Shown piece after piece: positions 52,605 through 64,000 of a stretch of DNA of 64,000 nucleotides; position 1 is the stretch's first letter; the number at the start of each line of letters is the position of its first letter. The stretch comes from Cellvibrio sp. 79 (GTDB taxonomy: Bacteria > Pseudomonadota > Gammaproteobacteria > Pseudomonadales > Cellvibrionaceae): contig MVDH01000003.1 of the NCBI GenBank assembly GCA_003056245.1, positions 721,957 to 785,956 on the forward strand, in the 5' to 3' direction. Made by a program: the position numbers and the translations under genes. The notes below the pieces were generated by a model. It did no database searches and was not told the origin of the DNA. It was given only the letters and a program-made list of their open reading frames with translations.

Positions 52605-54434
52605 ATGTGTGGAATTGTTGGCGCAGTAGCGCAACGCGATGTAGCAGATATTCTGGTGGAGGGATTGCGCCGTCTGGAATACCGCGGTTATGACTCAGCC
52701 GGTGTGGCCGTGGTTAGCAATGGTCAATTGCAACGCGTGCGTCGCCTGGGAAAAGTAAAAGAATTATCGGATGCTGTTCACGCGGAACCTATTCCCGGCG
52801 GTACCGGTATTGCTCACACCCGTTGGGCTACTCACGGTGAACCGAGCGAGCGCAATGCGCATCCGCATATTTCCAAAGAACATATTGCAGTGGTGCACAA
52901 CGGTATTATCGAAAACCACGCAAACCTGCGTCGTTTATTACAAGAAGAAGGTTATGTATTTACCTCGGATACTGATACCGAAGTAATCGCGCACCTGGTG
53001 CAAAAAGAATTAAAAAATACCGACAGTTTGTTAATTGCGGTGCAGAAATCAGTAAAACAATTACACGGCGCTTACGGCACAGTGTTGATGGACAAAAACG
53101 ACGCAAGTCGTTTGGTCGTTGCACGTTCCGGTTCACCATTGGTTATCGGTTTGGGAATTGGTGAAAATTTTATCGCTTCCGATCAACTCGCACTGTTGCC
53201 GGTAACTCGTCGCTTTATCTTTTTGGAAGAAGGCGATGTGGCGGAAATTACCCGTCAAACCATCAAAATTTTTGATAAAGATGGTGTTGCTGTCGAGCGC
53301 CAAATCCATGAATCTACGGCGAGTTACGACGCGGGCGATAAAGGCAAATTCCGTCACTTTATGCTGAAGGAAATTTACGAGCAACCAAACGCCGTATTGA
53401 ACACTTTGGAAGGTCGCTTAAGTAGTGAATCTGTATTGGATGAAACATTCGGTAACGGCGCTGCAGAATTATTTAAAAAAGTAAAACACATCCAGATCGT
53501 TGCTTGTGGTACCAGCTATCACTCCGGTTTGGTTGCGCGTTACTGGATTGAATCGCTCGGCGGAATTTCTTGCAATGTGGAAATCGCCAGCGAATTTCGT
53601 TATCGCAAATCCTTTGTGCAACCTGACAGTCTGTTAGTTTCAATCAGCCAATCCGGTGAAACAGCAGATACTTTAGCCGCATTGCGGCTCGCAAAAGAAT
53701 TGGGATATTTGGGTAGCCTCACAATTTGTAATGTTGCCGGTTCGTCGCTGGTACGTGAATCCGATCTCGCATTTATGACACGCGCTGGTGCTGAAATTGG
53801 TGTTGCTTCTACCAAAGCATTTACCACGCAACTTGTTGGTTTGGCGATGTTGGTTTTAGCGGTGGGTAAATACAACGGCCTGACGGCTGAACAACAAAAA
53901 GACATGGTGACGGCGCTGAAAAACCTTCCTGCAAAATTGGAAGAATCATTAGCACTCGCACCAAAAATCGAAGCCCTTGCCGAAGAGTTTGCGGATAAAC
54001 ATCACTCACTGTTTTTGGGCCGTGGCGATCAATATCCTATTGCAATGGAAGGCGCACTGAAATTAAAAGAAATTTCCTACATCCACGCTGAAGCCTACGC
54101 TGCCGGTGAATTAAAACACGGCCCGCTGGCATTGATAGACGCACACATGCCAATCATCGTTGTTGCACCAAACAATGATTTGTTGGAAAAATTAAAATCC
54201 AACGTCGAAGAGGTGCGCGCGCGCGGTGGTATTCTGTATGTATTCGCTGATGAAGATGCGCATTTTGAATCCGACGAAACCATGCGCGTAATCAACGTCC
54301 CGCACATCCATACCTGGTTAGCTCCAATCCTTTATACATTGCCACTGCAACTGCTGAGTTACTATGTGGCGATTATTAAAGGGACTGATGTGGACCAACC
54401 GCGCAACCTGGCCAAGTCGGTTACTGTGGAATAG
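52605..54434 (+). CDS. glmS: Glutamine-fructose-6-phosphate aminotransferase
   Basis: GlmS makes glucosamine-6-phosphate from fructose-6-phosphate and glutamine, the first step toward UDP-GlcNAc. It is 609 aa. The N-terminal glutaminase starts MCGIVGAV with nucleophile Cys2 (after Met removal, Cys1) and HTRWATHG. Two SIS sugar-isomerase domains follow ([33 protein letters not shown]), with the C-terminal [11 protein letters not shown]. No glmS ribozyme is seen upstream. It completes the GlmU/GlmS pathway pair of this window. Confidence 0.98.
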
Positions 54435-54784: not shown

Positions 54785-55132
54785 GTGATTGATCCCCTCC
54801 AATTTTTCAAATGCTTGGCTGATGAAACCCGCCTTAAGTCATTGATTCTCATGCACACTGAAGGTGAGCTGTGTGTATGCGAGCTGATGGAGGCTCTGGA
54901 TGAAATCCAACCCAAGATTTCCCGGCATCTAGCACTGCTAAGGGAACATAAAATTGTTTTGGATAGACGTCAGGGGCAATGGATCCACTACCGGTTGAAC
55001 CCTGATTTGCCCGATTGGGCTAAGGCAATTCTCGCTGCGACGACTCAATCTAATTCGTCGTACATTAAAGCCAATCTCAAAAAATTGTGTTGCATGATTG
55101 ATCGTCCGGAGCGTTCCAAGGCTTGTTGCTGA
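54785..55132 (+). CDS. arsR: ArsR-family arsenic-responsive repressor
   Basis: A 115-aa metalloregulator with a winged helix-turn-helix. The metal-binding motif ELCVCEL (28-34, Cys30 and Cys32) is the classic As(III) site of ArsR, and the recognition helix is IQPKISRHLALLREH. A Cys-Cys pair at the C-terminus (KACC) could add ligands. It starts with GTG at 54785 after AAAGG. It heads an operon with GAPDH and arsJ, which it is expected to repress until arsenite binds. Confidence 0.9.
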   Translation: MIDPLQFFKCLADETRLKSLILMHTEGELCVCELMEALDEIQPKISRHLALLREHKIVLDRRQGQWIHYRLNPDLPDWAKAILAATTQSNSSYIKANLKKLCCMIDRPERSKACC

Positions 55133-55157
55133 TTGAAAAAATAATTGAGTATGTGAC

Positions 55158-56165
55158 ATGAAAAAAATTAAAGTGGGCATCAATGGTTTTGGTCGAATTG
55201 GCCGTTTAGTGCTGCGTGCATCCTGGCATTGGCCAGAGTTTGAGTTTGTGCAAATCAATGATCCGGGCGCAGATGCAGAAACCTATGCCCACCTTCTTAA
55301 ATTCGATTCGGTACAGGGAATTTGGCCGGAGGATGTCACTGCCGAAGGTGACACGCTCGTCATCAATGGCAAAGCGATTAACGTTACAACCAACAAAACA
55401 ATTGCAGATACCAATTGGTCGGGCTGTGACCTGGTGATTGAAGCCAGTGGCAGAATGAAATCGGTCGCCATACTGCAAAATTATTTGGACCAAGGTGTAA
55501 AGCGTGTGGTGGTCAGCGCTCCCGTAAAAGAAACGGGGGCGTTGAATATCGTTATGGGGGTTAACCATCACTGGTTTAAACCCACAGAACATCGCATTGT
55601 GACTGCTGCATCTTGCACCACTAATTGCCTCGCTCCGGTTGTAAAAGTGATCCATGAAAAATTAGGAATTCGCCATGGCTCAATCACCACCATTCACAAT
55701 TTGACCAATACCCAATCCATTCTGGATCAGCCCCACAAAGATTTACGACGCGCACGATCTTCGGGCTCCAACTTAATTCCTACTACGACAGGTTCCGCTA
55801 CCGCTATTGCTGAAATCTTTCCGGAGTTACGTGGCCGCCTGAATGGGCATGCTGTCCGTGTTCCACTCGCTAACGCATCGTTAACTGACTGTGTGTTTGA
55901 AGTTGAACGCGCTACATCGGTTGAAGAAGTGAATCAGCTTTTGAAAGCTGCCAGCGAAAACGAATTAAAAAATATTCTCGGTTATGAAGAACGGCCATTG
56001 GTTTCCAGGGATTATTGCGGTGATCCGCGCTCATCGATTGTAGATGCGCTATCGACGATGGTGGTAAATGGTACGCAGGTAAAAATCTACGCTTGGTATG
56101 ACAACGAATGGGGTTACTCAAACCGTACTGCTGAACTCGCCCGCTTTGTAGGCCTGGCTGATTAA
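55158..56165 (+). CDS. ArsJ-associated glyceraldehyde-3-phosphate dehydrogenase
   Basis: A 335-aa type I GAPDH. The NAD-binding start [13 protein letters not shown] is at 8-20, the catalytic Cys153 lies in [10 protein letters not shown], and His180 lies in [10 protein letters not shown]. In operons with arsJ, this enzyme uses arsenate in place of phosphate to form 1-arseno-3-phosphoglycerate, which ArsJ exports and which then falls apart outside. The link is established for arsJ operons elsewhere; here it is inferred from the order arsR-gapdh-arsJ, with 25 and 2 bases between genes. It is unlikely to be the main glycolytic GAPDH. Confidence 0.9.
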
Positions 56166-56167
56166 AC

Positions 56168-57382
56168 ATGGCAAACCTGTCCAGCCCTTATAAACAATAC
56201 GCGATTGTCACCGGCAATTACTGGGCATTTACCCTGACTGATGGTGCCCTGCGTATGTTAGTGGTACTGCACTTTTATCAGTTGGGATTTAATCCCTTAC
56301 AAATTGCCAGCCTGTTTTTGTTCTATGAAATTTTTGGTGTAGTGACCAATTTGGCAGGCGGTTATCTGGGATCACGGATTGGCTTGAATAAAACCATGAA
56401 TATCGGTTTGGCATTACAAGTAGTCGCGTTGATGATGTTAGTGGTTCCCACAACGCTGTTAACTGTTCCCTGGGTAATGGGAGCACAGGCGTTGTCGGGT
56501 ATTGCTAAAGACCTCAATAAAATGAGCGCAAAAAGTACAATCAAATTACTGGTACCTGCTGATGAGCAGGGACAATTATTTAAATGGGTTGCACTGCTTA
56601 CCGGTTCTAAAAACGCATTGAAAGGTGTTGGTTTTTTTCTCGGTGCAGTGTTGCTCACAGGGTTGGGATTTAACGGCGCTGTTCTCAGTATGGCAGTTGC
56701 GTTGGCCATGGTTTGGTTAGCAAGCTTGTTGCTGTTAAGGCAAGATTTAGGTAAAGCCAAAAACAAACCGAAATTCCATGAGCTATTTTCCAAAAGCAAA
56801 GCAGTAAATGTTTTATCCTCTGCCCGATTATTCTTATTTGGTGCGCGTGATGTTTGGTTCGTGGTTGCGCTGCCTGTGTTTCTCGCCAGTCAATTGCAAT
56901 GGGATTTTTGGTGGGTAGGTGGCTTTCTCGCACTCTGGGTAATTGGGTACGGAATAGTTCAATCTGTGGTTCCGAAATTGCTACCACGTACCAAAACTAA
57001 AACGCCGGATGGTCGTTCGGCATTCTACTGGGCACTTATGCTTGCTTTTATAACAAGCATTCTTGCTGCGGCACTTGGTTCTGAATTACCACTGGCTCCT
57101 GTGTTAATAACAGGCTTGGTTCTTTTCGGAATTTTCTTTGCAATTAATTCATCGATCCATAGTTATTTGATTGTGAGTTACGCGAAAGAAGATGGAGTGT
57201 CCCTGGATGTGGGATTTTATTACATGGCTAATGCGGTTGGTCGATTGATAGGTACTATGCTTTCTGGTTGGGCCTATCAGGTTGCCGGATTAACGATGTG
57301 CCTGTGGATTTCTGCGGGTTTTATTGTTGCAGCAGCTTTACTTTCACTTGCACTTCCAAAGCATGTAAAAGAGGCTCAATGA
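56168..57382 (+). CDS. arsJ: Organoarsenical (1-arseno-3-phosphoglycerate) efflux permease
   Basis: A 404-aa major-facilitator permease with about 10-12 hydrophobic segments. The start SSPYKQYAIVTGNYWAFTLTDGALRMLVVLHF and the conserved GIAKDLNKMSAKSTIKLLVP identify it as ArsJ rather than a generic transporter. It starts 2 bases after the GAPDH stop, consistent with a joint pathway. The pair expels arsenate without first reducing it. Confidence 0.92.
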   Translation: MANLSSPYKQYAIVTGNYWAFTLTDGALRMLVVLHFYQLGFNPLQIASLFLFYEIFGVVTNLAGGYLGSRIGLNKTMNIGLALQVVALMMLVVPTTLLTVPWVMGAQALSGIAKDLNKMSAKSTIKLLVPADEQGQLFKWVALLTGSKNALKGVGFFLGAVLLTGLGFNGAVLSMAVALAMVWLASLLLLRQDLGKAKNKPKFHELFSKSKAVNVLSSARLFLFGARDVWFVVALPVFLASQLQWDFWWVGGFLALWVIGYGIVQSVVPKLLPRTKTKTPDGRSAFYWALMLAFITSILAAALGSELPLAPVLITGLVLFGIFFAINSSIHSYLIVSYAKEDGVSLDVGFYYMANAVGRLIGTMLSGWAYQVAGLTMCLWISAGFIVAAALLSLALPKHVKEAQ

Positions 57383-58275: not shown

Positions 58276-58619
58276 GATAAAGGGGTCCGAAAAAAAAGGT
58301 TGCAGGATATAGCAATCAAAATATTGCTGCCACTGCCGCTTCTCAATTCAAGAAAAAAACTGATTTTGTTTGTAGTGAAAAACTACTAACGAAAAAAATT
58401 CGTCTATGAAATCAATTGTGTCGCTTAAATTTTCTAAAGTAGATATTCACGTATTAATTGTGAAAAATTACCCAAAAAATTCTTGCAATAAAATATTAAC
58501 TTTGAAGGTTAATCTGATTAAGAATAAAAAAGATGAAGGAAACGTTACTGCTGGATTAGCAGAAAAATTTGAAGTATGGCTACCACACGAGTGGCGCTGA
58601 GAATATCGAAGGACAGAAA
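58276..58619. other. Divergent AT-rich region before the acyl/sulfur cluster
   Basis: 344 bases, very AT-rich, with probable divergent promoters. An open frame at 58406-58600 could encode a 64-aa Lys-rich peptide starting MKSIVSLKFSKV; it has no good ribosome site and I do not call it a gene with confidence. Confidence 0.4.
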
Positions 58620-59279
58620 ATGGGTGTTATTGAGCAGCTGATGGAAACGAAAAATCGTATCATCAAGCAAAAACTGGAGTTACAGGAATACCTCTCTCTC
58701 CAGTTTAAAAATTACCGGTCTATTTTGGTGCAAGATCCCAAAAATGGCTTTGATCGTTTGGGTCAGAATAACGATAACGAAGATGCAAACGATGTTTGTA
58801 GTGATCCTATCAATTTTTTCGAAAGAGCAGAGCCGCACGAATTAATTTCGAGCGATGAATACGTTTATACCAGTGATTGGGTGTTTGTCAGTCAGGATAT
58901 GATTGATGCGTTTGCGATTGTGACGCTGGATGACCAATGGATTCATACCGATATCTATCGCGCCCAAAAAGAATCACCGTTTAAAAGTACCATCGCCCAT
59001 GGTTTTTTGATTCTTTCGCTTATCCCTCATTTGACATCAACACGTGATTTACACGCGGTAGTTGGGCAATCGCCCCGGATGATTTTTAATTTGGGTTTGA
59101 AAAATGTCCATTTTTTACATCCACTGAAATCGAATTTGGCTATTCGTGCCAGGATTAAAACGCTGGAAATCCAACCTCAAAAAAGAGGCGTCCAGCTAAC
59201 AGAAGAAATCAGCATTGAAAGCAAATCCGGAAAAACGATTTGCAGGGCCGATACGATTTATCGCGTTGTTTTTCACTAG
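58620..59279 (+). CDS. NodN/MaoC-like hotdog-fold protein
   Basis: A 219-aa protein. Residues 1-80 form a charged, partly helical extension; residues 85-219 are a MaoC-like hotdog domain. The motif TLDDQWIHTD (102-111) corresponds to the hydratase motif, with Asp104 and His109 as the likely catalytic pair, and is closest to NodN-type proteins. Such enzymes hydrate or dehydrate acyl thioesters. The ATG at 58620 with GAAGGA upstream is preferred over 58569. It heads the plus-strand cluster with LuxE-like, IscU-like, NifS-like and FAAL genes. Confidence 0.82.
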   Translation: MGVIEQLMETKNRIIKQKLELQEYLSLQFKNYRSILVQDPKNGFDRLGQNNDNEDANDVCSDPINFFERAEPHELISSDEYVYTSDWVFVSQDMIDAFAIVTLDDQWIHTDIYRAQKESPFKSTIAHGFLILSLIPHLTSTRDLHAVVGQSPRMIFNLGLKNVHFLHPLKSNLAIRARIKTLEIQPQKRGVQLTEEISIESKSGKTICRADTIYRVVFH

Positions 59280-59328
59280 TTTTATGTTCCCCCCCGTTAA
59301 CACTCTAAACTTTTTTAAAGGAGTAACC

Positions 59329-60510
59329 ATGCACGCTTCACCATCCATTATGTCCCTGAAGGATCTGGGCATTGATCCACTGAAAGCCGTTGTGTCTTCA
59401 GTGTCCGAACTTTACAAGCTTCCGCAAGATACGCTGAACACAATAAAAGCGGATTTGATTATTGATAGCTTTCGCTTTCACTATGAAAATAACAAATATT
59501 ATCGCGATGCCTGCAATGAGAAAGGAATTAATCCTGCGCACATCCAGGGTTATGATGACCTTATTAAAATTCCATTAATTCCAATCGCAAAATTTAAATC
59601 AGCTTCCAACCATGAATTGCTGTCAAAGCCATTGACTGCGATTGAGCATGAGATGCGCAGTACAGGTACCAGCGGTATTCCAAGTATTTCCCGTCGCTGC
59701 AGCGGTACTATCGATCTGGCGGTTTCTGCAATTTACGCGATGTATCGCGAATTCCTGGGTATTTCAAAAGGCGCGGGTTTGTATGTGTGCCCGTCTACGG
59801 AAGAAATTCCCGAGATGGGTATGATCAAAGCATTAAATATGCTGGCTGGCCTTTTGGATACTCATCGCTTTATGGTCAAGCAGGAACGTTTTGTACCCGA
59901 AGATGCAATTGCACAATTAAAAACCTGGGACAAACAATTCACCCGTCACATCATTGGCCCACCATTTTTAATTCATCGCTTGTTGCAATTCCTGAAACAA
60001 ACCGGGCAAACCCTGAAGCTGGATAAAGGCAGCATGGTAATCACACTCGGTGGTTGGAAACGTTTTACTGGCCAAATGATTTCACGCCGTGAATTCAGTT
60101 TGATGTGCGAGGAATATTTAGGCATTCCCGCCAACGGCATTCGCGATATTTATGCGCTGGTTGAATCCAACGTAGTTGCAATTGATGATGAACATCAAGT
60201 CAAACACGTATCGCCTTATGTGCATTTCAGTGTGCGTGATATTAATGATTTAAGTAAGGAAGTGCCTGCAGGTGAGCGCGGAATTCTGGCAATCCTTGAT
60301 CCACTGGCGCTTGCAACACCGGGCATGATTCTTACTGAAGATATTGTGTCCCTTGTTCCTGGTGAAAGCCCTTCAGGGCGAAGCGGCCAGCGCATGGAAT
60401 ACATTATGCGCGCACCAACGTCGCTGGAATTTGGCTGTTGTGCAGTAAATCTGGAGCGGAAAATGGATGAAGACGAAGCGACAGAAAATGCGTGCCCTGT
60501 TACCGCGTAA
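59329..60510 (+). CDS. LuxE-family acyl-protein synthetase
   Basis: A 393-aa member of the LuxE/PaaK adenylating family. LuxE activates fatty acids as acyl-AMP and passes them to a reductase partner (LuxC). The nucleotide-binding phrase STGTSGIPS is at 111-119 and the acceptor region LGGWKRFTGQMISRREF is present. The ATG at 59329 follows AAAGGAG; the frame upstream of it is rejected. The C-terminal tail is acidic and carries Cys residues. No lux luciferase genes are visible, so a different use of the activated acyl group is likely. Confidence 0.85.
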   Translation: MHASPSIMSLKDLGIDPLKAVVSSVSELYKLPQDTLNTIKADLIIDSFRFHYENNKYYRDACNEKGINPAHIQGYDDLIKIPLIPIAKFKSASNHELLSKPLTAIEHEMRSTGTSGIPSISRRCSGTIDLAVSAIYAMYREFLGISKGAGLYVCPSTEEIPEMGMIKALNMLAGLLDTHRFMVKQERFVPEDAIAQLKTWDKQFTRHIIGPPFLIHRLLQFLKQTGQTLKLDKGSMVITLGGWKRFTGQMISRREFSLMCEEYLGIPANGIRDIYALVESNVVAIDDEHQVKHVSPYVHFSVRDINDLSKEVPAGERGILAILDPLALATPGMILTEDIVSLVPGESPSGRSGQRMEYIMRAPTSLEFGCCAVNLERKMDEDEATENACPVTA

Positions 60511-60583
60511 CGAGTAATTAATGGACGTGAATCCATGCCGGATTCACGTTTGTCCTTGAGCGTATAAACGTAAAGGAATTCTT

Positions 60584-60946
60584 ATGTTTAACGATATTAT
60601 TGTAAAAAATTTTTCCAATCCTGAATTTGCTGCCGAGATTGACAACGCCACCAATACCATTGAGCTGGGCAATCCTGTGTGTGGCGATCGCATTAAAGTG
60701 CAGTTGCACATTGAAGACGGCGTTATTAAAAAAGCCAATTATGCCGCCTGGGGTTGCGCAACTTCTCTTGCTACCGGCAATGTATTTTGCTCACACATCC
60801 ATGGTGCAGCTTGTAGTGATATCCAATCCATGGACAAAGCAAATATTGAAAACATGCTGGGCGAATTGGATCCCTCGCAACACCATTGTTTGGAAATGTT
60901 GCACAAGCTGTTTGAAAAACTCCAACACACTATCGCTGTGCAGTAA
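60584..60946 (+). CDS. IscU/NifU-like iron-sulfur scaffold
   Basis: A 120-aa protein with all scaffold ligands of IscU: Cys33 and Asp35 in GNPVCGDRIKV, Cys58 in AWGCATS and the His101-Cys102 pair. It is therefore likely to assemble or hand over Fe-S clusters or persulfide sulfur. An extra Cys69/Cys77 region (VFCSHIHGAACSD) departs from housekeeping IscU. It lies 15 bases before a NifS-like gene, so the two work as a donor-acceptor pair. It sits in a lipid-activation cluster instead of the isc operon. Confidence 0.88.
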   Translation: MFNDIIVKNFSNPEFAAEIDNATNTIELGNPVCGDRIKVQLHIEDGVIKKANYAAWGCATSLATGNVFCSHIHGAACSDIQSMDKANIENMLGELDPSQHHCLEMLHKLFEKLQHTIAVQ

Positions 60947-60960
60947 GCAGGTACGCCATC

Positions 60961-62193
60961 ATGACCACACAAGGCTATTTTGATTACAACGCAACGACAC
61001 CGGTTTGCTCCGAAGCGGTTAATGCATTTATCAATGCAGTAACCCAGTACGCGAATCCATCGAGTAAATACGGTTTATCCAAAACATCCAACGAAATAAT
61101 TAATGATGCGCGCGCGCAAGTAGCAACATTAATTGGTGCGGATACCGGCGAAGTATTTTTTACCTCCGGCGGTACCGAATCCAATAATTGGGCGATCAAA
61201 GGTGCTTTTTTCCAGCAACTGAAAATTTCCAGCACGCGCAATCATTTAATTGTGTCAGAAATGGAACATTCGTCGGTGTTGGAAGTGTGCGCATTCCTGG
61301 AGCGGGAATTTGATTGCACGGTGACGCGCCTCAAGCCGGACAGTGAAGGTATTGTTTCGGTGGCGGCGGTGGCTAATGCCCTGCGGCCGGAGACGCTGCT
61401 GGTATCGGTCATGATGGTGAACAATGAAGTCGGATCACTGCAACCCATCCGGGATATTGCGGCGTTATTGGATGATAGAGCGTCACAACAAAAAAATTTG
61501 CACGATCAAAAAATTCATTTCCATGTCGATGCCGTCCAGGCCGTTGGAAAAATCCCGGTCGATGTGCGCGACCTGGGTGTGGATACCATGTCATTTTCCG
61601 GCCATAAATTTTATGCCCCGAAAGGGATTGGCGGTTTGTATATTCGCCAGGGTATCAAGATCACTCCCCTACTCCATGGCGGTGGCCAGGAACGCGGATT
61701 GCGTGGCGGTACAGAAGCAATTGCGTCGGTAGCGGCAATGGGTGCAGCAGCGCAAGTTACTGTTAATACCTTGAATGACCAGGTTGTTTATCTGGCGAAA
61801 TATCGCGAGTTATTAAGGTCCGAATTATTAAGCGTTGTGCCGGGTGTGTATTTCCACGGGCCTGCCAACAAAGCGCTCCAGGCACCCAACACATTGAGTG
61901 TTTGTATACCGGGAATTCGCGCAGAAGCATTGGCTGCATTGCTGGATAACATGCACGGCATTCAGGTATCGCTGGGTGCTGCCTGCAGTAATAACAAAAG
62001 TGTGGCGTTGTCCCATGTGCTGCTGTCCATGGGCCTTGACGAGGATGCGGTCAAAGCAACGCTCCGCGTCAGTATTGGCCAATACACCACAGAGAGCGAT
62101 ATCCACCGGTTCGTCCAGGCCGTAGTAACCGGCGTGACCACTTTGTTTCGTATTAGCAAGCCAGCGAGTCAATCCTATGTCACTACCGCTTGA
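60961..62193 (+). CDS. NifS/IscS-type cysteine desulfurase
   Basis: A 410-aa PLP enzyme that takes sulfur from cysteine as a persulfide. Motifs in order: FDYNATTPV (7-15), TSGGTESNNWA (68-78), EHSSVLE (102-108), HVDAVQAVGKIPVD (188-201), SGHK with the PLP lysine 216, RGGTE (248-252) and the mobile-loop Cys342 in GAACSNNKSVALSHVL. All catalytic residues are present. It overlaps the following FAAL gene by 17 bases, which argues for tight co-expression. Confidence 0.93.
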   Translation: MTTQGYFDYNATTPVCSEAVNAFINAVTQYANPSSKYGLSKTSNEIINDARAQVATLIGADTGEVFFTSGGTESNNWAIKGAFFQQLKISSTRNHLIVSEMEHSSVLEVCAFLEREFDCTVTRLKPDSEGIVSVAAVANALRPETLLVSVMMVNNEVGSLQPIRDIAALLDDRASQQKNLHDQKIHFHVDAVQAVGKIPVDVRDLGVDTMSFSGHKFYAPKGIGGLYIRQGIKITPLLHGGGQERGLRGGTEAIASVAAMGAAAQVTVNTLNDQVVYLAKYRELLRSELLSVVPGVYFHGPANKALQAPNTLSVCIPGIRAEALAALLDNMHGIQVSLGAACSNNKSVALSHVLLSMGLDEDAVKATLRVSIGQYTTESDIHRFVQAVVTGVTTLFRISKPASQSYVTTA

Positions 62194-63964
62194 TTCCGCC
62201 GGCAGCATCCTCGCGTGCCTGGAACATTACGCCGCCGCACGCGCAAACGAAAATGCTTACGTGTTCCTGACCGACGGTGAAATTCATGAGCAAGCATTAA
62301 CGTACAACGAGCTGCGTTCGCGCGCCCAGGCTATGGCCGGCGAATTAACGCAACGCGGATTGCAAGATCAGGCGGTGTTGTTGTTATTTCCAGCAGGGCT
62401 GGATTTTGTGATCGCATTTTTTGCGTGCTTGTATGCGGGGACTATTGCCGTTCCTGCCAACCTCGCACGCAATAGTCATCACTATGCGCGCCTGAAACAA
62501 ATTATCCAGGATTCAAATACGCAGGCCGTATTAACAATCCCTGCCCTTAAAGCAGCGACAGAAAAAGGATTGACCACTGCCGGTGTTGATGTTGCACACA
62601 TTGGTATTTTGTGTGAGGTCGATATTGTCAACGCCGCCAGCCGCGCGCATTTTCAACCGGTAGCGCGTACGCATCAGCCTGCGTTTATCCAATATACGTC
62701 GGGGTCAACGGGAAATCCGAAAGGCGTTATCGTGACGCACGCGCAATTGGTTGCAAACGAGCGCGCGATCCAGCGTTGTTCAAACTTGCCTGAATTTGCC
62801 AACGTGGGCGGATGGTTGCCGCAATTCCATGATATGGGTTTGATAGGCACCATGCTGCAACCGGCCGCATTAGGTGGCTGTTATTACTTCATGTCGCCGT
62901 TGCATTTTATCCAAAGCCCGATGCGCTGGATAAAGTTACTAAGCCGTTGCAAGGCTGTCGCTACCGCCGCGCCCAATTTTGCGTTGGATATGTGCGTTAA
63001 AGCTATGCGTAACGGTTTTGATGGCGATCTGGATTTGTCATCACTGAATACTATTTTTTGCGGCGCGGAACCGGTTAACCAAAATACCGTAAGCCAATTT
63101 AATTCCTGTTTTGAACCTTATGGATTACATCCCGATGCACTCAAGCCGTGTTATGGAATGGCGGAAACCACGCTGATTATTTCCGGGGGAATTGCAACCG
63201 GTGTTGCCAAATATCTCACCGTCAATCGCGAAGCATTAAAAACCGGCGTTGTTTCCGTTGTGACTGAACAGGACCCCGAATCGCAACACATTGTTTGTTG
63301 CGGCGCGCCGGTTGATGGCCACGTGATTAAAATTGTTAACCCCGAAACGTTTGCCGTATTGGATGAAAATGCCGTTGGCGAAATCTGGTGCGCAGGCCCC
63401 AGCATCGCGGCCGGTTATTGGAAAAACGAACGCGCAACGCTCGACACTTTCGGTGCAAAAACCGCGTGCGGGCAAGGCCCCTTTTTGCGCACCGGCGATT
63501 TGGGTTTTATTAATCGCGATGGCATTTTTGTAACAGGCCGCATCAAGGAATTAATGATTATTCGCGGTAAAAATCATTATCCGCACGATATCGAAACAAC
63601 CATCGCCGGTGTATTTGCAGAAAAAAGCATGGACGTGCAAGTCGCGGTCTTTGCAAATGATGAAGCGGCCAAAGTCCCCGGTATTGTGGCTTACGTTGAA
63701 TTGCCGCGCCGTGGCACTGCGTTGGATGCAGAAACATTCAAGCAATTCGTAAGCACTTTGCGCCAGGCGGTCAATGCTGTGCACGACGTGCAATTGAAAG
63801 ATGTTGTTGCATTCAAATTTGGCAGTATTCCACGCACCTCCAGCGGTAAAACCCAGCGGCTTGCCTGCGCGCGCTTATACACCAGCGGCGGTATTGATAC
63901 TGACGAACGTGTGTTGTTATCGACACGGCGCACAACAACCGAAACGGAAGCTGTTGCTTCCTGA
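62177..63964 (+). CDS. Fatty acyl-AMP ligase (FAAL)
   Basis: A 595-aa adenylating enzyme that forms fatty acyl-AMP and loads it on a carrier protein. The ATP motif TSGSTGNPKG is at 174-183, the FAAL-typical GWLPQFHDMGLIG is at 212-224, the family motif YGMAETT follows, and SSGKTQR near the C-terminus holds the last catalytic Lys. The insertion-bearing stretch between YGMAETT and VGEIWCAGPSIAAGYW marks FAAL rather than acyl-CoA ligase. Product and carrier are unknown; the next gene, which just starts at the window edge, may be that carrier. Confidence 0.93.
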   Translation: MSLPLDSAGSILACLEHYAAARANENAYVFLTDGEIHEQALTYNELRSRAQAMAGELTQRGLQDQAVLLLFPAGLDFVIAFFACLYAGTIAVPANLARNSHHYARLKQIIQDSNTQAVLTIPALKAATEKGLTTAGVDVAHIGILCEVDIVNAASRAHFQPVARTHQPAFIQYTSGSTGNPKGVIVTHAQLVANERAIQRCSNLPEFANVGGWLPQFHDMGLIGTMLQPAALGGCYYFMSPLHFIQSPMRWIKLLSRCKAVATAAPNFALDMCVKAMRNGFDGDLDLSSLNTIFCGAEPVNQNTVSQFNSCFEPYGLHPDALKPCYGMAETTLIISGGIATGVAKYLTVNREALKTGVVSVVTEQDPESQHIVCCGAPVDGHVIKIVNPETFAVLDENAVGEIWCAGPSIAAGYWKNERATLDTFGAKTACGQGPFLRTGDLGFINRDGIFVTGRIKELMIIRGKNHYPHDIETTIAGVFAEKSMDVQVAVFANDEAAKVPGIVAYVELPRRGTALDAETFKQFVSTLRQAVNAVHDVQLKDVVAFKFGSIPRTSSGKTQRLACARLYTSGGIDTDERVLLSTRRTTTETEAVAS

Positions 63965-63995
63965 CAATCAATTTACTGACGGAAGGAAACTATTT

Positions 63996-64000
63996 ATGTC
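63996..64000 (+). CDS. Start of next gene (truncated by window edge)
   Basis: An ATG at 63996 is preceded by GGAAGGAAAC, a strong ribosome site. Only the first codon is visible. In FAAL clusters the next gene is often an acyl carrier protein or a multidomain synthase, but nothing here proves it. Confidence 0.5.

Follow-up and report, generated by a model that had tools for sequence, protein, structure and literature searches.

Bacteria can form thiocarboxylic acids from activated carboxylates by means of the thioacid cassette PtmA3/PtmU4, which belongs to the thioplatensimycin pathway and also occurs in the qbs, pdt and ytk clusters (PMC6006322, excerpted text). We describe here a gene cluster of Cellvibrio sp. 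79, located at the end of a window of 64,000 nucleotides (the whole stretch of DNA analysed, G000:C9:721957-785956, in a genome of 5.7 Mb), that would likewise activate a carboxylate and replace its oxygen by sulfur and that, as is described for the cassette, is scattered over bacterial genomes. However, while the cassette pairs a two-domain type III CoA-transferase with an acyl-CoA synthetase and draws on sulfur-carrier proteins (PMC6006322, same excerpt), the parts found here are a LuxE-like acyl-protein synthetase, an IscU-like protein, a NifS-type cysteine desulfurase, a fatty acyl-AMP ligase (FAAL) and an acyl carrier protein (ACP). No CoA-transferase was present among the recurring neighbour families scanned with Pfam, a scan outside which singleton neighbours, and genes hidden by our open reading frame (ORF) rule in GC-rich loci, mostly lay. 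Three other systems are related to parts of the cluster. The LuxC-LuxD-LuxE fatty acid reductase of bacterial luminescence also has a LuxE-type enzyme with an acyl-cysteine near its C-terminus, but the LuxC-like reductase that the earlier note on this DNA had envisaged farther along was sought in this genome with no match, the LuxE-like protein carries an extra vicinal cysteine, and its partners are NifS, the IscU-like protein, FAAL, ACP and a flavin monooxygenase (FMO). The NifS-NifU, IscS-IscU and SufS-SufU pairs are of the same families, and their catalytic cysteine and scaffold ligands are kept here, although in the cluster both proteins fall below the NCBIfam cut-offs (in the matches listed), the LPPVK motif is missing and the pair accompanies LuxE in 37 of the 39 close loci. 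Finally, a FAAL next to a stand-alone carrier protein, on which a fatty acid would be loaded, recalls the FAAL-ACP lipid starter modules, but a ketosynthase (KS) is present only in the Bacillota locus L087 and, by eye, in L084, and no non-ribosomal peptide synthetase (NRPS), cyclase or methylase appeared among the recurring neighbour families scanned. The cluster is real and conserved. In the open-licence PMC literature, which leaves most subscription papers and all preprints outside, the matches listed held no paper on this gene set and, as far as this search goes, the pathway is undescribed.

The cluster was first recognized, in the earlier note, as five co-oriented genes of named families forming a dedicated acyl and sulfur pathway. 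The ORF list of the window places five same-strand ORFs at 58620-63964, and all five pass the Pfam cut-off, which bears out both the arrangement and, together with NCBIfam, the families; the idea of a dedicated pathway is supported by what follows, its chemistry being inferred. The core begins with the LuxE-like acyl-protein synthetase with a C-terminal Cys-Cys pair (C370, C371; 59329-60510, plus strand; Pfam LuxE, 4.3e-37), and continues with the IscU/NifU_N-like protein (60584-60946, plus strand; NifU_N, 3.4e-18), the NifS/IscS-type desulfurase with its catalytic Cys342 (60961-62193, plus strand; Aminotran_5, 8.9e-69) and the FAAL (62177-63964, plus strand; AMP-binding, 1.7e-63), which overlaps NifS by 17 bp. 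For the first four genes the best NCBIfam matches were PaaZ (weak, for the MaoC part of the first), LuxE, SufU and NifS, whereas PRK05691 ranked first for the fifth and PRK05850 next; none of the matches listed (for the fifth gene the best 25 of 104) reaches its curated cut-off, so that the window proteins are divergent members of their families. As to the FAAL subfamily, PRK05691 is a multidomain synthase whose N-terminus matches the fifth gene, and behind it the best matches listed include the fatty-acid--AMP ligase model PRK05850 (3e-119) and other FAAL models, all below cut-off. The operon is larger than these five genes, which form its left half: it goes on past position 64,000, in a region (L002, G000:C9:779000-793000) running beyond the window edge. 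The ACP gene, with an LDS phosphopantetheine site, starts at 63996 on the plus strand, has its first five positions (63996-64000) inside the window and is complete at L002:6953-7288, so that the carrier protein suggested in the earlier note is present. It is followed, beyond the window end, by the FMO (L002:7290-8381) and by an MMPL/RND exporter fused to a LolA-like domain (L002:8378-11524).

A search of species genomes with four LuxE query proteins yielded 42 loci, 39 of them close; since the scan relied on two short peptide patterns, 39 is a lower bound, and the distant loci L091-L093 are outside all counts of 39. LuxE, IscU-like protein and NifS were found together in 37 of the 39 (L084 being counted although its IscU-like and NifS genes are broken into pieces), FAAL in 36, FMO in 35, and ACP in 33 by tblastn plus two more read by eye, i.e. 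35. Three loci, L061, L052 and L086, were taken to be from the same genomes as G465, G771 and G582 and were counted once. The misses are as follows: L063 has no FMO, L085 is a LuxE gene alone on a 3.5 kb contig, L059 lies at a contig end and has neither ACP nor FMO, L083 has no FAAL or ACP, and L086 has a shortened LuxE followed by what by eye looks like a transposase ORF. The hosts of the close loci span at least four phyla and comprise alpha-, beta- and gammaproteobacteria, two cyanobacteria, a Bizionia metagenome-assembled genome (MAG) and four Bacillota, L085 being from a Chloroflexi MAG. The LuxE-IscU-NifS association in 37 of 39 close loci means that the gene set is far from chance. In the same family, G375 carries LuxE-IscU-NifS-FAAL-ACP-FMO-RND-LolA-OMP-PPTase-MaoC in one run (PPTase by Pfam), and in another order of the same class G465 has the core as far as the RND gene. 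Among plasmid records, 15 matched LuxE, namely a canonical lux reporter and 14 Priestia plasmids whose LuxE is 49-50% identical (13 cover 95% of LuxE, one 74%). The one Priestia plasmid opened, p-LAD1 of Priestia aryabhattai, has the six-gene core plus a carboxymuconolactone-decarboxylase (CMD) family protein at L100:8420-14733, annotated in the order CMD, fatty acyl-AMP ligase, NAD(P)/FAD oxidoreductase, phosphopantetheine protein, LuxE, scaffold and desulfurase. The co-occurrence in other genomes, on which the earlier note had made its proposal depend, is therefore found both in the close loci and on this plasmid.

When the six core genes are compared two by two, their distance matrices correlate (Mantel r 0.86-0.97), and for each of the 15 pairs none of 500 permutations was as high. 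Shared descent alone also produces such a correlation, and the result is thus one of co-inheritance, not of function. The distance matrices were built without L085, L086 and L091-L093, that of NifS also without L084, and alignments A3, A4 and A5 held 30, 22 and 20 representative rows. The LuxE subfamily has a patchy occurrence: it was found in 5 of the 144 genomes from the family, in 2 of the 21 from the genus and, counting the window's own genome, in 3 of 369 from a sample of the class. In one of the five family carriers (G838:C1:1726062-1727236) the LuxE-subfamily gene is split into two frames, and this cluster has possibly decayed.

In a profile search the LuxE-like protein matched the solved LuxE 7xc6_E over its full length, the C-terminal acyl-cysteine included (E 1.7e-53), but it scores 135 bits against a cut-off of 550 for the NCBIfam LuxE equivalog. 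Its structure model (mean pLDDT 86.9) shows a PaaK-type adenylating fold (2y4o_B, TM 0.68), and the best 50 Foldseek matches are PaaK-type and other adenylating enzymes, 7xc6 not being among them. The adenylation motif STGTSG is kept in the family, five of its six residues being invariant. The Photobacterium LuxE acyl site is Cys364 (PMC8301110, in the part used here). At the C-terminus, the family has GCCA(V/I)NL where canonical LuxE has GCALSL; the canonical acyl-cysteine aligns to C371 with MAFFT or to C370 in the profile alignment, and either way there is one cysteine more than in LuxE. C371 is present in 40 of 40 rows and C370 in 39, the exception (L086) having a C-terminus that is out of frame or altered. 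Other cysteines are less constant (C62 in 38, C124 in 34, C154 in 32, C260 in 29 and C389 in 35 of 40 rows).

The IscU-like protein keeps C33, D35, C58, H101 and C102 invariant in 22 representative rows. LPPVK, which is the HscA-binding motif of IscU, is missing: 37 of 37 cluster proteins have no PPVK and show P-(S/A/E/N)-Q instead, L084 being incomplete at this point. As a control, 28 loci were screened for the housekeeping ORF; the script chose the right one in 19, a neighbouring IscA in seven and nothing in two, and LPPVK was found in 18 of the 19 right ORFs. The gene adjoins LuxE and NifS rather than isc partners, and HscA, HscB and ferredoxin are not among the recurring neighbour families scanned with Pfam. 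In NifS, the catalytic cysteine (C342) is present in 37 of 38 rows, the remaining one being a gap in the broken L084, and H215-K216, which includes the PLP lysine, in at least 95%. In a NifS tree made with a quick method, without L059, L084, L085 and L086, the 37 cluster rows require two label changes, since two long branches, the IscS of the SUF operon and a DndA-like row, come to lie among them; the tree is compatible with a single origin of the cluster NifS but does not demonstrate one. The cyanobacterial rows lie among the gammaproteobacteria, and the betaproteobacterial ones with Cellvibrio and Pseudomonas.

The FMO has small monooxygenases as its nearest solved chains (4usr, 4a9w, 4c5o and 4usq), and such enzymes act on sulfides; S-oxidation of a thioacid may be its role. 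The exporter differs by lineage: MMPL plus LolA, HlyD plus MFS in Xenorhabdus, AcrB plus HlyD plus a TolC-type protein in Bizionia, and ABC plus HlyD in Calothrix. The presence of unrelated exporters in different lineages argues for an exported small molecule. The Bizionia locus L083 has no FAAL or ACP within 10 kb; besides LuxE, the IscU-like protein and NifS it carries efflux genes of the AcrB type and a divergent FMO (26% identity with that of the operon), and this content points to LuxE, IscU-like protein, NifS and FMO as the sulfur-installing core. It is likely, then, that the core stands for activation, sulfur mobilisation and flavin oxygenation, and that FAAL/ACP, KS and hot-dog proteins shape the acyl part; the KS is fused to a carrier protein in Paenibacillus (L087), and a KS start follows the ACP of L084 (by eye).

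We believe that the best joint explanation, to which we give about an even chance, is a biosynthetic cluster, spread horizontally, for an exported sulfur-containing acyl compound made by persulfide transfer to a LuxE-bound acyl group. Starting from the gene set, its linkage, the conserved catalytic residues, the SUF operon present elsewhere in the genome and the lineage-specific exporters, we infer every chemical step and the product as follows. FAAL would adenylate a fatty acid and load the carrier protein, and the acyl group would then pass to the LuxE-like enzyme, bound through a thioester to its C-terminal cysteine. Sulfur drawn from cysteine by NifS would travel as a persulfide, via the IscU-like protein, to the neighbouring LuxE cysteine or directly to the acyl thioester, with release of a thiocarboxylic acid or an acyl persulfide; oxidation of this sulfur by the FMO would yield an acyl-sulfenic or related group, and the product would leave through the exporter. 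The nearest chemistry is reportedly that of the sulfenicin pathway, where a flavin enzyme is said to oxidise the sulfur of a thiocarboxylic acid to an acyl-sulfenic acid, on a Streptomyces polyketide synthase-NRPS skeleton and with sulfur donors other than those found here. The OsmC-like protein of Xenorhabdus and the CMD/AhpD-like protein of Bacillota may protect against a reactive product as thiol-peroxide defences. The more specific proposal is tentative and falls somewhat short of an even chance: a new acyl-sulfur route without a ThiS-like carrier, in which a LuxE thioester and a NifS-to-IscU-like relay meet at the vicinal Cys-Cys and flavin S-oxygenation follows, giving a class of reactive lipid thiocarboxylates, acyl persulfides or acyl-sulfenic compounds in at least four phyla, with an IscU-family protein as sulfur carrier and not as Fe-S scaffold. 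If this is right, the present set would do the same kind of job as PtmA3/PtmU4 with unrelated parts. A 2024 paper speaks of thiocarboxylic and S-oxidised acyl compounds as extremely rare and counts nine that are fully characterised (PMC10915793, in the excerpt cited here). A sulfur relay ending on the acyl group would be a second, unrelated bacterial way to such compounds, and it raises the question of whether an IscU-family protein can act as a dedicated sulfur carrier. The cluster is compact, lies beside exporters and occurs in genera that are in culture (Cellvibrio, Shewanella, Xenorhabdus and, on plasmids, Priestia), which makes the product and the sulfur chemistry directly testable.

Several points weigh against this interpretation. 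The roles of FAAL and LuxE seem to duplicate each other, and there is no recurring thioesterase to connect the carrier protein with LuxE. The register of the LuxE acyl-cysteine is off by one residue between the MAFFT and profile alignments, and L063, although a long locus, has no FMO. The kept ligands of the IscU-like protein would fit an Fe-S scaffold equally. Both the product and the enzyme functions are predictions, and the FMO substrate is not readable from sequence.

The strongest rival, unlikely but to be taken seriously, is a dedicated Fe-S assembly in which the NifS/IscU-like pair serves a pathway enzyme, either the LuxE-like protein itself or a client elsewhere, and the product does not contain that sulfur; a downstream Fe-S enzyme was also one of the two proposals of the earlier note. 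All the metal and sulfur ligands of IscU, Asp included, are kept, and the LuxE-like proteins hold several conserved cysteines beyond C370/C371 (those at 62, 124, 154, 260 and 389). Moreover, an NfuA-type protein (NifU plus Fe-S_biosyn domains) and FeoABC flank four Xenorhabdus loci (Pfam), and L066 has, about 9 kb from LuxE, a radical-SAM-type ORF that looks real by eye; Fe-S clients could also be elsewhere or have none of the four motifs scanned. However, among the families found, NfuA and Feo are limited to Xenorhabdus, in an apparently ordinary enterobacterial bioH-gntX-nfuA and feoABC neighbourhood (an order that we presume to be typical, BioH and GntX being named by eye and matching Abhydrolase and Pribosyltran in Pfam). 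HscA, HscB and ferredoxin are not among the families scanned, LPPVK is replaced throughout, and both the window genome and G375 own another Fe-S system or scaffold. A motif scan of the chosen ORFs of at least 90 aa found an Fe-S enzyme motif in one of 39 loci but, as choosing the longest ORF favours antisense frames where a locus is GC-rich (for example L053, L058, L060 and L081), the scan was redone on six frames. It gave the radical-SAM pattern in 10 loci, 2Fe-2S in 7, Rieske in 2 and 4Fe-4S in none; two families occurred in several loci (three of Shewanella, three of Xenorhabdus), both being minus-strand frames over other listed ORFs. Consequently, no Fe-S enzyme recurring across genera was found in the flanks of the 39 loci by this crude scan (four patterns; three control loci gave no match, so that it has no proper positive control) together with Pfam of the recurring neighbour families, from which c18 (ending at a locus edge) and c26, c27, c29 and c31 (opposite-strand frames over core genes) were left out. 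This weakens the Fe-S client idea and favours a sulfur-containing product, sulfur transfer onto the activated acyl group being the simplest reading; of the two earlier proposals, that of a sulfur-containing acyl product therefore fits better.

It is less probable still, and on the whole doubtful, that the sulfur goes to another part of the molecule (alkyl thiolation, a thiazole or dithiole, a thioamide) and that the acyl chain made by LuxE and FAAL is an ordinary one. More complex skeletons would be allowed by the presence of two acyl-activating enzymes and of a KS-carrier fusion (L087, with the KS start in L084), and hot-dog proteins recur in some lineages, but no cyclase, methylase or NRPS was seen among the recurring families scanned, and the smallest versions (Priestia and Bizionia) comprise enzymes for activation, sulfur mobilisation and flavin chemistry, with export or a CMD protein in addition. 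That the pair is simply the cell's housekeeping Fe-S system beside lipid genes deserves hardly any credence: it does include the only NifU_N protein of the genome, which consequently has no isc operon, a condition that the earlier note had named for this reading, but the explanation is ruled out by a separate SUF operon that includes an IscS and a SufS of its own, the IscU-like protein finds no match in G305 of the same genus, LuxE is in only 2 of 21 genus genomes and the pair moves with LuxE across phyla. The SUF operon (C1:925401-933341) comprises IscR, IscS, SufB, SufC, SufD, SufS, IscA-like, SufT-like and SufE-like genes, the two desulfurases and SufB/D being named by Pfam and the others by eye. 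Two further class V aminotransferases are encoded in the genome (G000:C8:88158-89333 and C1:735415-737337); by eye, one looks DndA-like, and the other, of 640 aa with a long N-terminal extension, resembles an encapsulin-cargo desulfurase.

Around the core, the first of the five window genes encodes a MaoC/NodN-like hot-dog protein (58620-59279, plus strand, the ORF opening at 58569; Pfam MaoC_dehydratas, 2.1e-13), an optional member that recurs in a few lineages and is near the core in L052, L064, L066, L067 and G375. Downstream of the exporter, an outer-membrane-like ORF (L002:11530-12729) and a transglutaminase-like ORF (L002:12753-13508) follow beyond the window end. A homologous regulator (AraC family by Pfam in L063) adjoins the cluster in 17 loci (L063, L065, L068-L080, L082 and L083), and an OsmC-like protein is near it in six Xenorhabdus loci (L072:19869-20309 and others, one of them scanned with Pfam). 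In Xenorhabdus anantnagensis (L080:10444-13604) a second class V aminotransferase and an MFS gene stand directly behind the core.

The cluster is patchily distributed, as mobile clusters are, and horizontal spread is part of the explanation to which we gave about an even chance. In the window genome it lies, with ars genes, in a segment of about 17 kb directly downstream of glmS, starting at window position 54434 (G000:C9:776390-793380). In the relative G305, whose GlmS is 99% identical, the distance from glmS to the next conserved block is about 0.6 kb versus about 17 kb here, although loss in G305 rather than gain in the window genome is also possible. The 3' end of glmS is the target of Tn7, and the location fits a Tn7-type insertion, but a simple search of the segment edges found no shared inverted repeat or Tn7-end word, and we do not claim one. 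The settings in other genera are different: in Shewanella (L068, L069 and L082) the cluster has thiolase/3HCDH fatty-acid oxidation genes on one side and a PepQ-type gene on the other, and in Xenorhabdus (e.g. L074 and L076-L078) a FeoABC set on one side and an alpha/beta hydrolase-NfuA set on the other. Inside the segment missing from G305, an ArsR-family regulator, a glyceraldehyde-3-phosphate dehydrogenase and an MFS protein stand in a row at window positions 54785-57382, a trio which we take to resemble the arsR-gapdh-arsJ arsenate-resistance set.

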